NCBI GenBank assembly: GCA_004524535.1
Contig: SDNY01000024.1
Location: 1 to 37,695, forward strand
Origin: Promethearchaeota archaeon
GTDB lineage: Archaea; Asgardarchaeota; Lokiarchaeia; Sigyniarchaeales; SOKP01
Length of the DNA stretch: 37,695 nucleotides
Direction: 5' to 3'
The translations under genes and the position numbers were made by a program. Under the pieces are notes generated by a model. It was not told where the DNA came from. It did no database searches and was given only the letters and a program-made list of their open reading frames with translations. Of this stretch, positions 1 through 22,319 are shown one piece after another (position 1 is the first letter of the stretch; every line of letters starts with the position of its first letter).

Positions 1-248
1 GTAGTCTCTTCAATCCATTGACCAAGTTCATCATCAACTCTACAAAAAGTAACAATTTTATCTAAATCTTGAAGATTACTAAATGAGCATTCGATAATCA
101 GATCCCAACCACCATAGACTGGTGTAGAATATGTAACCATCCAATTTTGACCAGGTTCGGTGGATTTTAAATTTTTCAATTTTTCTACTACTTTCCATTC
201 AGTACCAATGATTTTAAGACGGACTAAAATATATCCTCGATAATAAAT
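1..248 (-). CDS. Lrp/AsnC-type ligand-binding (RAM) domain protein, partial
   Basis: Open frame read on the minus strand and running off the left edge of the window, so the C-terminus is missing. The visible 82 residues follow the RAM fold of Lrp/AsnC regulators: a first strand RGYILVRLKIIG, a helix ending in VVEKLKN, then PVYGGWDLIIECSFSNLQDLDKIV, which resembles the family's 'vyG-yDl-i-v ... el-~iv' core. No helix-turn-helix precedes it, so this looks like a stand-alone ligand-binding domain that may sense a small molecule such as an amino acid. No ATG, GTG or TTG exists in frame back to the upstream stop. The start is placed at ATT 248-246 because a GGTG core (259-256) lies exactly seven bases upstream. 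It is divergent from gltX. Family moderately sure, start inferred. Confidence 0.6.
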   Translation of the reverse strand, partial: MYYRGYILVRLKIIGTEWKVVEKLKNLKSTEPGQNWMVTYSTPVYGGWDLIIECSFSNLQDLDKIVTFCRVDDELGQWIEET

Positions 249-7998: not shown

Positions 7999-8085
7999 AA
8001 AATCTTATCTTTTTTCAGACTAATAATTTTTATATTTTTTAGAGAGTTTTTTATTTTAACAGAAAAAACATTAAAAAACGAGGAG

Positions 8086-8382
8086 ATAAAATTTCGAACA
8101 CGAAAACCATTTCTTATTTTTTGGCCTCAATACTTTGATGCAAAGCGAAGTAGAAGTGATGGAAGACGCCTTCCTACCAAACTTGCAATTGATAAAGTGA
8201 CTCATAAAGAAATCGCAACAGCAGCAAAAAGATTGGGATATCAAGTAGAAATAGAAGGAAATTATAGGTATCCTAAAACGTGGTGGGAAAATCCTGGAAG
8301 GGTTCTCATAAATACAAAAGGAAAGAAAAAATCTAAGGTAATTTTAGAAATAGCAAGAGAAATCAGAAAAATGCGAGGCTAA
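8086..8382 (+). CDS. srp19: Signal recognition particle 19 kDa protein (SRP19), no usual start codon
   Basis: SRP19 binds SRP RNA and helps SRP54 assemble on it. The frame contains the full family core: FLIFWPQYFDAKRSRSDGRR, then a helix KEIATAAKRLGY, then YPKTWWENPGRVLI and a basic tail, about 98 residues in all, the usual archaeal size. The first conventional start in this frame is a GTG at 8197, which would remove the conserved N-terminal half. From the ferredoxin stop at 7998 to 8197 there is no ATG, GTG or TTG in frame and no stop. The ATA at 8086 gives the natural N-terminus (M)KFRTRKPFLIFWP. GAGGAG precedes it but is very close, so the exact start is uncertain. It is followed after 12 bases by hypA. 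Confidence 0.9.
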   Translation: MKFRTRKPFLIFWPQYFDAKRSRSDGRRLPTKLAIDKVTHKEIATAAKRLGYQVEIEGNYRYPKTWWENPGRVLINTKGKKKSKVILEIAREIRKMRG

Positions 8383-9961: not shown

Positions 9962-12817
9962 ATGAAAAAGCAAGAAAAAGTAATTGTTAAAAAACTAATT
10001 ATCGTTGGATTTATTACTGGATTAACCTTCTCAGTTTTTTCCCTTCCAATAATTGAAATGCTTACTGGATCTCCTGTTGCTCCTCTTGGAAATATCCTTT
10101 TTCCGGGTAATGGTGTATGGAACGTCCCAGGAGAAGTTCCAGAACACGAAACATTATATATTGAGGATCTAAATGATGAAGTCACAGTCTATCGTGATGT
10201 CTGGGGCATACCTCACATTTACGGAAACGACGAAGAGGATTTAATGTTTGCGGCGGGGTATGTCCATGCCCAAGATAGATTATTTCAAATGGAAATGGTC
10301 AGAAGGCTTGTCAGAGGAAGATTATCTGAAATTGCTGGTGAGGAGTATATAGAATCCGATAAATACAATCTAGCATTAGGGATGGAATATTGGTCGAAAA
10401 AAACACTTCTAATGTTAGAGGAAAAAGAGGAAAGAGGGGAAATTGATCTTTTAGAACCATTTGAACGATATGTTGACGGAATTAATTATTATATAGATAC
10501 CCACCAAAATGAGCTCCCTATTGAGTTTGCAATATTGGGTTTTAAGCCAACTGAGTGGACAATGACAGATTCATTATGTTTTGCAAAGTATATGGGGTAT
10601 ATGCTTACCTGGGATTACGATGACTTGTATAGATTGATTAATTTTGAGGCATTAGGCAGTGAAAGATATAATGATTTATATAGTCAATATGCTCCTTATC
10701 AAATCCCTATTTGTCCAAATTACGGGTCTTATAACGATAGTGTTATGGCATTAACTCATTTAGAAAGTGAACCACAACCAAGTTCTTCGGCGTTAAATGC
10801 CATATCACGTTTTCTAACCAATGTTGAAAATATTGAATCAGAAAAGCAATTAATAAATATAAAAAAACAGAATATTTTGGGCTCTAATAATTGGGTAGTA
10901 GATGGAGTATTAAGTGATACAGGTAAGCCAATTTTATGTAATGATATGCATTTAGCGTGGGGCTTACCGGGAATATGGTATGAATCTCACATTTCCGCGC
11001 AAGATCCGGATTTAAATGTCTATGGATTCACACTTCCGGGAGTGCCGCTAGTTATTGTTGGACATAACGAACATATAGCTTGGGGATTTACTAATACAAA
11101 TTACGACGTTTTAGACTGGTACTATTACAACGAGATAGATTCTAATCATTATATTCATAATGGTAAGGTAAAAGAATATAAAACAAGAGATTATAAGATT
11201 CGTGTAAAAGGAAAAGATCCAGTGGAATTTAAAGTGAAAGAAACAGTGCATGGTCCTGTTTTAAACGATTTCTTAGATGATGCGGTTCCGGACTCCCTTG
11301 ATTACGAAAATATAGTTATTGCACCCCAATGGACTGCTAACGACATAACATACGAAGCTTTAGCATTTTATGAATTCTTTTTTGCGAAAAATAGGGCAGA
11401 ATTTAATGAATCTTCAAGATGGTTTGTCAATCCTGCTCAAAATATGATCTATGGGGATATACACGGTAATATCGGAATTAGACCAACTGGATTAGTGCCT
11501 ATAAGAGATGGAAACGAAAATGGAACGTTCCCATATGATGGATCGAGTGGCGAAGGCGAATGGATTGGATACATTCCTTTTGAAGAATTACCCCATACTG
11601 AAAATCCCGACCAGCATTATCTGGCTTCTGCAAACCAAATAGTTGCGGGTCCTAACTATAAAAAGTATTTCCTTCAACACCCCTATGCTGCAGGCTATCG
11701 AGCAAGACGAATTAACGAATTACTTAATAATTCTGAAGATGGGACTGTAAGCGTAGAAACGATGAAAGAAATCCAATTAGATATAAGATCCACTCCCGCA
11801 GAATACTTTACACCCTATTTAATCAATGTAATTGAAAAAGGTGGGTTTTCTGAGAAAGCTTCAGTGATAAATCAAATTTATTCACATCTTAAATCTTGGC
11901 AATTTGATATGGATAAAGATAAAGCAGCTCCCACGATATACCGCAAATGGCGCGATTTATATATGGAATATACATTTGAAGACGAATTTGATGCGTTAGA
12001 TGCTTATCAGTATGTTCAATTAAATGTTTTAGAGAAATTAACCAGGGAAGATCCAAATTCAACGTGGTTTGACGATATTTATACACCCATAGTTGAAAAG
12101 AGAGATGATATTATTCTAAGAGCATTTTTGGATACGGTTGATTGGCTTGAAGACTTCTACGATTCAGATGATGTCGATGATTGGGAGTGGGGTGATCTAC
12201 ATAAAGGGTATTTCGAGCATCTTTTAGAAATAGAAACTTTTAGTAAAGGTCCTTATGAATTGGATGGAGAGGGCTACACAGTAAATCCTTCTTGGGTAGA
12301 TATAAGCGATGGGGAAGGAAGAGCAGGTGGAGGAGCTTCAGAGAGAATGATTATCGACTTTAGCGATCTTCAAAATTGTTTAAGTGTAATCCCATCCGGA
12401 CAACGTGGATATTCAAACTCAAAACATTATGATGATCAATTAGAATTATTTTTAGACGGAGAATATCATCCTCAATATTTTTATGATGATATTGAGGATT
12501 TTCCTGAAAGTAAAATTGAATCCCAACTCCACTTTATTCCGGCTGAAAAAGTTATCGTGTGGATAGCTTTCACAACAATTTTCTTAATTATTGGGATTAT
12601 TAGCCTCATAGAAATTCGCTGGATAAGAAAGTATGATATAATTCCAAAAATTGAAGAAAAGAGAAATTTATTAGTTCAATGGATCAAAAAAAACGAGCTG
12701 ATTTCAAAAATTAAAGAAAAGAGAAATGTATTAATTCAATGGATCAAAAAGAACGGGAGAATTTCAAAAATTAAAGAGTGGAATCATTCTTTGGTTCAAT
12801 GGATCAAAAAAAGGTGA
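9962..12817 (+). CDS. Penicillin-acylase family N-terminal nucleophile hydrolase, membrane anchored, with C-terminal 20-residue repeats
   Basis: A 951-residue amidase of the penicillin acylase family, which hydrolyses amide bonds (penicillins, acyl-homoserine lactones, other N-acyl compounds) and matures by self-cleavage. A hydrophobic segment at residues 10-32 acts as signal or anchor. The alpha part shows VYRDVWGIPHIYG and AAGYVHAQDRLFQME. The beta chain would begin at S308 in GSNNWVV, the expected catalytic serine. The core faces outside the membrane. A second membrane helix (about 864-884) leads to a basic tail of three tandem 20-residue repeats (892-951), probably cytoplasmic. Family members are usually around 750-850 residues, so the C-terminal anchor and tail are extra. 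The stop codon is embedded in the Shine-Dalgarno of the next gene. Substrate unknown. Confidence 0.93.
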   Translation: MKKQEKVIVKKLIIVGFITGLTFSVFSLPIIEMLTGSPVAPLGNILFPGNGVWNVPGEVPEHETLYIEDLNDEVTVYRDVWGIPHIYGNDEEDLMFAAGYVHAQDRLFQMEMVRRLVRGRLSEIAGEEYIESDKYNLALGMEYWSKKTLLMLEEKEERGEIDLLEPFERYVDGINYYIDTHQNELPIEFAILGFKPTEWTMTDSLCFAKYMGYMLTWDYDDLYRLINFEALGSERYNDLYSQYAPYQIPICPNYGSYNDSVMALTHLESEPQPSSSALNAISRFLTNVENIESEKQLINIKKQNILGSNNWVVDGVLSDTGKPILCNDMHLAWGLPGIWYESHISAQDPDLNVYGFTLPGVPLVIVGHNEHIAWGFTNTNYDVLDWYYYNEIDSNHYIHNGKVKEYKTRDYKIRVKGKDPVEFKVKETVHGPVLNDFLDDAVPDSLDYENIVIAPQWTANDITYEALAFYEFFFAKNRAEFNESSRWFVNPAQNMIYGDIHGNIGIRPTGLVPIRDGNENGTFPYDGSSGEGEWIGYIPFEELPHTENPDQHYLASANQIVAGPNYKKYFLQHPYAAGYRARRINELLNNSEDGTVSVETMKEIQLDIRSTPAEYFTPYLINVIEKGGFSEKASVINQIYSHLKSWQFDMDKDKAAPTIYRKWRDLYMEYTFEDEFDALDAYQYVQLNVLEKLTREDPNSTWFDDIYTPIVEKRDDIILRAFLDTVDWLEDFYDSDDVDDWEWGDLHKGYFEHLLEIETFSKGPYELDGEGYTVNPSWVDISDGEGRAGGGASERMIIDFSDLQNCLSVIPSGQRGYSNSKHYDDQLELFLDGEYHPQYFYDDIEDFPESKIESQLHFIPAEKVIVWIAFTTIFLIIGIISLIEIRWIRKYDIIPKIEEKRNLLVQWIKKNELISKIKEKRNVLIQWIKKNGRISKIKEWNHSLVQWIKKR
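12635..12814 (+). repeat. Three tandem 60-base coding repeats
   Basis: Units 12635-12694, 12695-12754 and 12755-12814 each encode 20 residues with the pattern x-x-I-x-K-I-x-E-x-x-x-x-L-x-Q-W-I-K-K-x and end exactly at the stop codon. CAATGGATCAAAAA recurs in each. High base-level similarity suggests recent duplication. Confidence 0.92.
12813..12816 (+). promoter_or_regulatory. Shine-Dalgarno GGTG(AT) before an ATA start
   Basis: GGTGAT matches the anti-Shine-Dalgarno. Its TGA is also the stop codon of the acylase gene, and ATA follows GGTG after seven bases at 12824, implying coupled translation. Confidence 0.6.
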
Positions 12818-12823
12818 TCATAA

Positions 12824-13303
12824 ATAGCTCTCAAGAAAATAAGAAGAAAAATTAAGAATGGTTTTAAAAACAAAGAGATTAATCCAGAACTTAAACTAGC
12901 TCGAATAAATTTTTTAATCGGGACTCTTTTTGCGGTTATTATTACGTTTTTTCTTTTATTTGTAGAAATATGGCATTTAATTATAATTCCTGGTTTGGTT
13001 GCCGGAATATTTAATAAAAAGATGAAACGTGGAATATATAGTGGAGCTTTAGGAGTTACTTTAGTCTGGTTAATTTACATGACTTTAGCTATTCTTACTC
13101 GAAATGCTTATGCTAATTTAGATCAATTTGCGGGCTTAATTTTTGGTGAATTAGGGTACGGATGGATTCTTTTTATAATGATCTTGTTATTTGGAACATT
13201 ATTTGGAGCCCTGGGTGGAGCAATTGGAAGCGGCCTTGTGATCTTTATTGACCTTAAACAAATGGATCGAGTGGATAACGCTCAGACTCGAGAGGAGAGA
13301 TGA
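12824..13303 (+). CDS. Small four-helix membrane protein of unknown function, ATA start
   Basis: A 159-residue protein with a basic N-terminus (KKIRRKIKNG) and about four hydrophobic helices: LIGTLFAVIITFFLLF, a short one around LIIIPGLVAGIF, ALGVTLVWLIYMTLAIL, and WILFIMILLFGTLFGALGG. It ends in a charged tail. A conventional start exists only at TTG 12995, inside the second hydrophobic stretch, which would delete the first helix and the basic leader. The frame is open back to TAA at 12821. ATA 12824 lies seven bases after GGTG, so I take it as the start. Its Shine-Dalgarno overlaps the stop of the acylase gene, so the two proteins are probably made together, perhaps as partners. Resembles DUF5518-like small membrane proteins only in size and glycine-rich final helix. 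Confidence 0.7.
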   Translation: MALKKIRRKIKNGFKNKEINPELKLARINFLIGTLFAVIITFFLLFVEIWHLIIIPGLVAGIFNKKMKRGIYSGALGVTLVWLIYMTLAILTRNAYANLDQFAGLIFGELGYGWILFIMILLFGTLFGALGGAIGSGLVIFIDLKQMDRVDNAQTREER

Positions 13304-21525: not shown

Positions 21526-21552
21526 GAGTTTATGAGGAGATAAAAAATAAAA

Positions 21553-21556
21553 GGTG
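21553..21556 (+). promoter_or_regulatory. Shine-Dalgarno GGTG(AT) before an ATA start
   Basis: AGGTGATT precedes ATA 21564 with seven bases after GGTG. No ATG, GTG or TTG lies in frame until 21669. Confidence 0.6.
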
Positions 21557-21563
21557 ATTAACA

Positions 21564-22319
21564 ATAAAAATTCATGACAAATTTCAAAAGGGTGTAGAAA
21601 ACGTTTTTTTTAAGGGAGAATCTACAAAATGGAGCCGAAAACTTACCTTCATTTTTGGAAATTTATTTTTGATGGTTTTTTTATATGGAATTATCATAAT
21701 GCTTATTTTATACACTTGGACGGGTAGTTTATATCCTGAAGGTACAGGTTATAGATTAGATTTTCTTGGTGAAAATTTTATTCCATTTGTTCCAGAAATG
21801 GCCATTTTCTATATTTTTTTATTTTTTCCAATGTTAATTCTAACTTTAATCTATTTCGGTTTTCTTGATGAAGAGAAAGGTTACGGTTTAGGATGGTCTA
21901 TCGTGATAATGAATGCTATCGCAACTATTATCTATATCATTTTTCCCGTATCAACTTACTGGTGGAGACAAGAGCTTTTGGCTAATAAAATTGAAGGCAA
22001 TTTTTTCGCAGATTTAATGTACTTCTATTACACGCACGAGACAAGTTTCAATTGCTTACCAAGTATGCATGCTGGAATGTCGACTATTTGTTTCTTCACT
22101 TGGTATCAGTACTATAAAATAAATCCAACTTTTAAGAGAAAAATTATAGCAATTATTGCTTTAATCATAGCAGTTGGAGTTGTGCTATCAACATTATTTG
22201 TGAAACAGCACTACATAATTGATGAGATTGCTGGAGTTGCATTAGCTTTTGCTGTTGGAATGTTTGTTTTTAGACGATCTAGCGGTTGGAATCCCTCTGA
22301 AATAACAAATCAAACCTAA
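21564..22319 (+). CDS. PAP2-superfamily phosphatase/phosphotransferase, ATA start
   Basis: A 251-residue membrane protein of the PAP2 group, close to the PAP2_3/AUR1-like type that handles lipid phosphates. About six membrane helices are visible. Catalytic motifs are LPSMHAG with H169 and KQHYIIDE with H216 and D220. The charged first 35 residues (KIHDKFQKGVENVFFKGEST) would be lost if the first conventional start, TTG 21669 or ATG 21672 inside the first helix, were used. The frame is open back to TGA 21555, and ATA 21564 sits seven bases after GGTG. The substrate may be an isoprenoid or lipid phosphate. It follows the PrsW-type gene by 38 bases. Confidence 0.88.
   Translation: MKIHDKFQKGVENVFFKGESTKWSRKLTFIFGNLFLMVFLYGIIIMLILYTWTGSLYPEGTGYRLDFLGENFIPFVPEMAIFYIFLFFPMLILTLIYFGFLDEEKGYGLGWSIVIMNAIATIIYIIFPVSTYWWRQELLANKIEGNFFADLMYFYYTHETSFNCLPSMHAGMSTICFFTWYQYYKINPTFKRKIIAIIALIIAVGVVLSTLFVKQHYIIDEIAGVALAFAVGMFVFRRSSGWNPSEITNQT

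Follow-up and report, generated by a model that had tools for sequence, protein, structure and literature searches.

Probable start codon of the membrane-protein gene

Where does translation begin in a conserved reading frame that offers no ATG, GTG or TTG ahead of its hydrophobic core? The question arises in a 37,695-nucleotide stretch of DNA (hereafter the window), contig C73 in the 3.66-Mb genome of an archaeon; the named relatives of one window protein all come from Lokiarchaeota/Lokiarchaeia assemblies. On the forward strand, an acylase gene of the penicillin-amidase family (9962 to 12817; PF01804, 675 bits) is followed by a membrane-protein gene of 159 codons (12824 to 13303). The encoded membrane protein is DUF5518-like without being a member, scoring below the gathering cut-off of that family in a profile search (PF17647; 20.8 vs 27 bits). 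Positions 12810-12826 read AAAGGTGATCATAAATA and include a Shine-Dalgarno (SD) sequence, AGGTGATC (12812 to 12819), whose eight bases are complementary to the 16S rRNA 3' end.

The initial annotation had proposed ATA 12824 as the start codon, seven bases after GGTG (12813-12816) and behind an SD that contains the TGA stop of the acylase gene (12815-12817), and this geometry is exact. An in-frame TAA (12821 to 12823) closes the frame directly 5' of the ATA (12824 to 12826), which is its first codon and from which all 159 codons are open. The accompanying claim that the frame holds no ATG, GTG or TTG before TTG 12995 is equally accurate; this TTG is codon 58 and lies in the conserved hydrophobic core. 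As a separate observation, the 3' end of the acylase gene (12640-12815) consists of about three degenerate tandem units of approximately 60 bases (LVQWIKKN.LISKIKEKRN...); the final unit extends into the SD, and G003 and G004 have the same ending.

Both congeneric species, G003 and G004, whose membrane proteins are 97% and 88% identical to this one over their full length, retain GGTG-7-ATA GCT CTC AAG, and neither gene contains an ATG, GTG or TTG before the hydrophobic core. G004 has an extra ATA two codons upstream, the choice between the two being made by spacing. Relatives of the same family carry ATG (L004, L006-L008) or TTG (L013, L015) at the equivalent position behind the SD, and L009 apparently starts at ATT (GGAGGTGTCAAGAATT), with a GTG inside its SD. 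Orthologues starting at TTG 12995 would have spoken for that codon, and none does: every match that covers the N-terminus begins far upstream of it, and in the orthologue search all matches except a 43-residue fragment and some marginal ones begin within query residues 1-42. In G003 and G004 the 57 residues before TTG 12995, the other test proposed for the ATA start, are conserved, synonymous change per site exceeding non-synonymous change; the degree of conservation is moderate (dN/dS 0.15-0.60 for codons 2-57). Our best explanation of the whole, in which we place high confidence on the strength of these sequence comparisons, is that the membrane protein would be translated from AUA 12824 and that Lokiarchaeia of this family start a minority of their genes SD-dependently at AUA, AUU or AUC (AUH; ATH in DNA).

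Two further genes of the window with the same geometry

The same spacing had been pointed out at two other sites of the window, and both hold up in detail and are kept in the two congeneric species. At 21553-21566 of the forward strand, GGTG (21553-21556) within the SD AGGTGAT (21552 to 21558) stands seven bases before ATA 21564. This ATA is in frame with a PAP2 phosphatase gene listed from TTG 21669, which we place from ATA 21564 to 22319; the protein passes the PAP2 superfamily gathering cut-off (PAP2_3, 52.9 vs 27 bits, profile search), and the ATA is present with its entire context in G003 and G004.

At the other site (246-259), on the minus strand, GGTG (259-256), part of the SD AGGTGT (260 to 255), precedes ATT 248-246, the start of a small conserved gene (YYRGYILVRLK...) that runs off the window (248 to 1). 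In Lokiarchaeia, 55 distinct loci place ATT (36), ATC (15) or ATG (4) before [Y/F]YRGY, that is, ATT or ATC in 51 of 55 copies that are related and do not give independent counts. No ATG, GTG or TTG lies in frame before this codon at 35 of the 55 loci, and many loci show a stop codon directly before it and conserved residues directly after it. In more distant families of this order, ATG occupies the column or a position close to it. ATA is absent from the column, despite making up 33% of Ile codons in these loci (a chance of 1e-9 if the loci were independent, which, being related, they are not), and the column is therefore not simply an internal Ile. This restriction to ATT or ATC (window 1-248; loci L151-L207) sets the family apart from other AUH-start genes, which use ATA freely. 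The YYRGY protein bears a weak resemblance to the Lrp/AsnC ligand-binding domain, below its gathering cut-off (12.6 vs 25 bits).

Elsewhere in the window (8080-8095), a conserved protein gene (...RTRKPFLIFWPQYFD..., SRP19-like by eye) carries TTT 8092, with ATG in G004, G001, L170 and L178. It has no usual start nearby, and ATA 8086 lies two codons upstream of the TTT, directly after GAGGAG.

Spacing of ATH codons after the SD sequence

The pooled sample comprised 3.34 Mb, mostly Lokiarchaeial, with 2,570 coding-strand ORFs on contigs sampled from metagenome assemblies (G+C approximately 31%). We first took genes with a conserved N-terminus before the first usual start and a five-base SD match, excluding the YYRGY family. 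This left 35 genes, with some genes entered from more than one species, for which 47 codons were assigned at the appropriate spacing, including ATA 16, ATT 9 and ATC 1; among the control codons listed, 12 bases further on, ATH numbered 8.

A second test used distance from GGTG. ATG peaks at GGTG+7 (1,562 ORFs from six family members). At spacing 7 the codon shares the frame of the TGA in GGTGA, which raises the random background at spacings 1, 4, 7, 10 and so on; the comparison was therefore restricted to distances of the same phase. When ORFs with a usual start ahead of the codon or in the eight codons following it were set aside, GGTG+7 held 19 ATH codons and three other non-NNG sense codons (19/22), against 28 ATH and 96 others (28/124) at spacings 1, 4, 10, 13, 16 and 19 (Fisher p = 1.6e-8, for related loci whose counts are not independent). 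The excess appears when only the first ten codons are taken, with distance resolved and phase controlled; a looser SD-to-codon tally over 40 codons gave no ATH excess, because internal Ile codons swamp the signal.

The coupling to an upstream stop codon suggested for the ATA start fits the acylase/membrane-protein junction and fails as a general rule. Among the 19 GGTG-7-ATH genes, an upstream stop falls within the SD/start region in only 3, and in a single case (1/19) the preceding stop terminates a gene in the same frame; thus coupling is not general, and nor is readthrough. Individual genomes yielded 1-7 qualifying SD+ATH genes per 116-339 sampled, next to 5-27 SD-led usual starts, which puts the AUH-start share at roughly 1-3% of genes, an estimate that includes some chance hits. 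The outgroups G042 and G056 contained no GGTG-7-ATH among 233 genes, a sample too small to prove absence.

ATH is also found where other protein families begin. UspA genes of G004, G033 and G035 read AGGTGA nnn nnn followed by ATT, ATT and ATC, respectively, and then YKKILxGxDxS, and from the ATT residue 2 aligns with Pfam position 2. Flavodoxin starts at ATT in G004 and a Gtr/Rag GTPase at ATA in G035; carB of CP070831.1 (L185) has ATA AAA ATT CCT TTA GAT at the site of its relatives' ATG. The spacing test, together with orthologue start columns in which ATG, ATT, ATC and TTG interchange, bears out the suggestion that several genes start at AUA or AUU: very probably, this Lokiarchaeon and its relatives start a minority of their genes at AUA, AUU or AUC rather than at AUG.

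Start codon of the aIF1 gene

The initiation factor aIF1 destabilises initiation complexes on non-AUG codons (PMC6237735). Its gene in this genome (SUI1, PF01253; contig C174, L280) lies outside the window, and the protein passes the SUI1 gathering cut-off (62.9 vs 25.5 bits). It matches the solved chain 4mo0, named aIF1 in the PDB, with E = 4.9e-25, and 4mo0 begins at most about two residues from the start column. After a TGA the frame reads AAA GAG ACA ATC AAA GAC GAA GAC ATT TGT; the N-terminal region holds no usual start codon, and the start codon is ATC.

In family f1, the start column contains ATT in 32 and ATC in one of 33 distinct leaders from related loci, with variable codons upstream and conserved codons downstream. 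The start is preceded by a conserved AAGGTTGTGA, in which the AGG and GTGA of an SD flank a TT mismatch, and the spacing is 10 bases from GTG, compared with the usual 7. Genus g6 has GTG instead of ATT. Elsewhere in the phylum, where loci were located by tblastn and read by coordinates with some ambiguous start assignments, aIF1 starts at ATA in Asgard families f12 and f18, at GTG in f13 and most of f23, at TTG in f20 and at a mixture of TTG, GTG and ATA in f2; ATG is found in f4, f9, f11, f22, f27, f28 and one member of f23. The f16 gene (L374) has no ATG, GTG or TTG and shows AGGTG-7-CTG, the same geometry, so that a CUG start is possible from its sequence. By comparison, aIF1A of this genome (G000, the only one read for that factor) starts at ATG.

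Within AAGGTTGTGA (L280, 1405-1428; loci L301-L346), most members contain an in-frame TTG TGA start-stop pair, which may be merely an SD with two mismatches; L330 has TCG TGA. Second aIF1-like copies (L340, L342-L344, L350) have GAGGTG about nine bases before ATT, and a GTG lies in frame inside this SD.

Proposed decoding of AUH codons and alternative explanations

The 16S rRNA 3' end, GGATCACCTCCT (L262), carries an ordinary anti-SD, which makes the full SD GGAGGTGATCC. A search with an initiator-stem pattern found one initiator tRNA, with anticodon CAU. Two matches on C183 to a GAU-anticodon initiator candidate (GGGCTGATAACCC) both proved to be coding sequence and were discarded. With a single CAU initiator, the simplest solution would be that Met-tRNAi reads AUH codons despite a mismatch at the third position. 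At the membrane-protein gene, the strong SD AGGUGAUC, overlapping the acylase stop, would hold the 30S subunit and thereby bring AUA to the P site. There the ordinary Met-tRNAi (CAU) would accept the codon, pairing correctly with its first two bases and tolerating a mismatch at the third; the first residue would then probably be Met.

The same observations bear on other ways of accounting for these frames. Translation might begin elsewhere in frame, at TTG 12995 or another near-cognate codon, the leading codons being untranslated; TTG 12995 is after all the first usual start codon of the membrane-protein frame, and the frame holds a further ATA (12839) and an ATT close by. We consider this improbable, given that TTG 12995 falls within the conserved hydrophobic core of every orthologue while orthologues start far upstream, that a stop often stands directly before the ATT of YYRGY loci with conserved residues directly after, and that 19 of 22 codons at GGTG+7 are ATH. 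Readthrough joining the membrane protein to the upstream gene would need no new start, and the two genes do share a frame, with a single TGA between them in G004; two stops separate them here (TGA TCA TAA), no same-frame upstream partner exists for aIF1 or PAP2, and as a general explanation readthrough is ruled out by the lone same-frame case noted above, which leaves it a minimal chance. Sequencing errors or gene decay are just as hard to credit as the cause of the missing start codons: all sequences do come from metagenome assemblies, yet independent assemblies from different species show the identical non-AUG codon, purifying selection acts on the frames, which are intact, and an essential role is expected for aIF1.

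A more specific alternative makes AUH cognate, through a dedicated initiator tRNA whose anticodon is altered or through mRNA editing. A GAU-anticodon initiator would explain why AUA never occurs at the start of aIF1 and YYRGY, which both use AUY. The initiator-stem pattern, which being exact could miss variant stems or introns, returned only the CAU tRNA, and AUU and AUC are beyond the reach of A-to-I editing; we therefore regard this solution as very unlikely. Far more serious is the possibility that AUH initiation is real while AUU on aIF1 only keeps expression low, with no aIF1 feedback. Genes unrelated to aIF1 (membrane proteins, UspA, PAP2) carry weak codons too, and several Asgard families have ATG on aIF1; this reading has a substantial chance of being right. 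Selection for feedback is nevertheless a better fit than weak expression alone to a near-invariant AUU with AAGGTTGTGA on the gene of the fidelity factor itself, and likewise to non-AUG aIF1 starts in several distant Asgard families.

Discussion

Factors that guard start-codon choice offer two precedents for such feedback. Work by Butler in 1987, which appears in the reference list of PMC9845219, is said to have dealt with the AUU start of E. coli infC (IF3) and its autocontrol. As there, the gene of a start-codon fidelity factor in Lokiarchaeia starts at AUU behind an SD; the present case differs in being archaeal, in that feedback is proposed by analogy and in that AUH starts occur on many other genes too. 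The factors themselves are not homologous, aIF1 having the SUI1 fold. Closer in descent is eIF1/SUI1, which, according to the passage in PMC6237735 that cites Ivanov 2010, autoregulates through a poor-context AUG. The factor is homologous and its own mRNA has a poor start; eukaryotes, however, scan, keep AUG and weaken its context, whereas in aIF1 the codon itself is weak and is positioned by an SD. Because AUU is near-invariant on the fidelity-factor gene, as on infC and in parallel with the poor-context AUG of eIF1, negative autoregulation of aIF1 appears rather probable by analogy: aIF1, by rejecting poor start codons, would limit its own synthesis through its AUU/AUC start.

The level of aIF1 would in turn set the translation efficiency of the other AUH genes, which, speculatively, may respond to it. 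We tentatively propose, as a possibility and not as an expectation, that Lokiarchaeia have a regulatory layer built on start-codon fidelity, in which aIF1 senses its own level through AUU and the AUH genes, including the AUU/AUC-fixed YYRGY gene, form the regulon.

Near-cognate AUU, AUA and CUG starts are known as rarities in annotated prokaryotes, and a survey of 61,358 starts in 36 prokaryote groups contained one AUG-to-AUU switch (PMC5622118). While such starts are almost absent there, in Lokiarchaeia they are recurrent, have a defined SD geometry and are fixed in some genes. The proposed mode otherwise resembles SD-led archaeal initiation as outlined in the relevant part of PMC7531240, with SD pairing and selection of Met-tRNAi by aIF1, aIF1A and aIF2. 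In their passages on archaeal SD initiation, two reviews (PMC7531240, PMC12993045) describe SDs as rare in Lokiarchaea, as judged from annotated starts, and those passages do not mention AUH starts. A search of the full-text literature, subscription papers and preprints excluded, returned no earlier report of AUA, AUU or AUC starts as an Asgard feature, or of AUU on an archaeal aIF1.

Standard gene finders would truncate or miss AUH-start proteins. Asgard gene calls would thus be wrong at the 5' end for a few percent of genes, with short genes missed and membrane helices and N-terminal domains cut. Asgard archaea are the closest known relatives of eukaryotes, and AUU on the factor that enforces AUG bears on the origin of weak-start feedback, which may have arisen independently in bacteria, archaea and eukaryotes or be old in the archaeal-eukaryotic line. 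If the regulatory layer is real, non-AUG aIF1 starts across several Asgard families would be the archaeal counterpart of the IF3 and eIF1 feedback loops.
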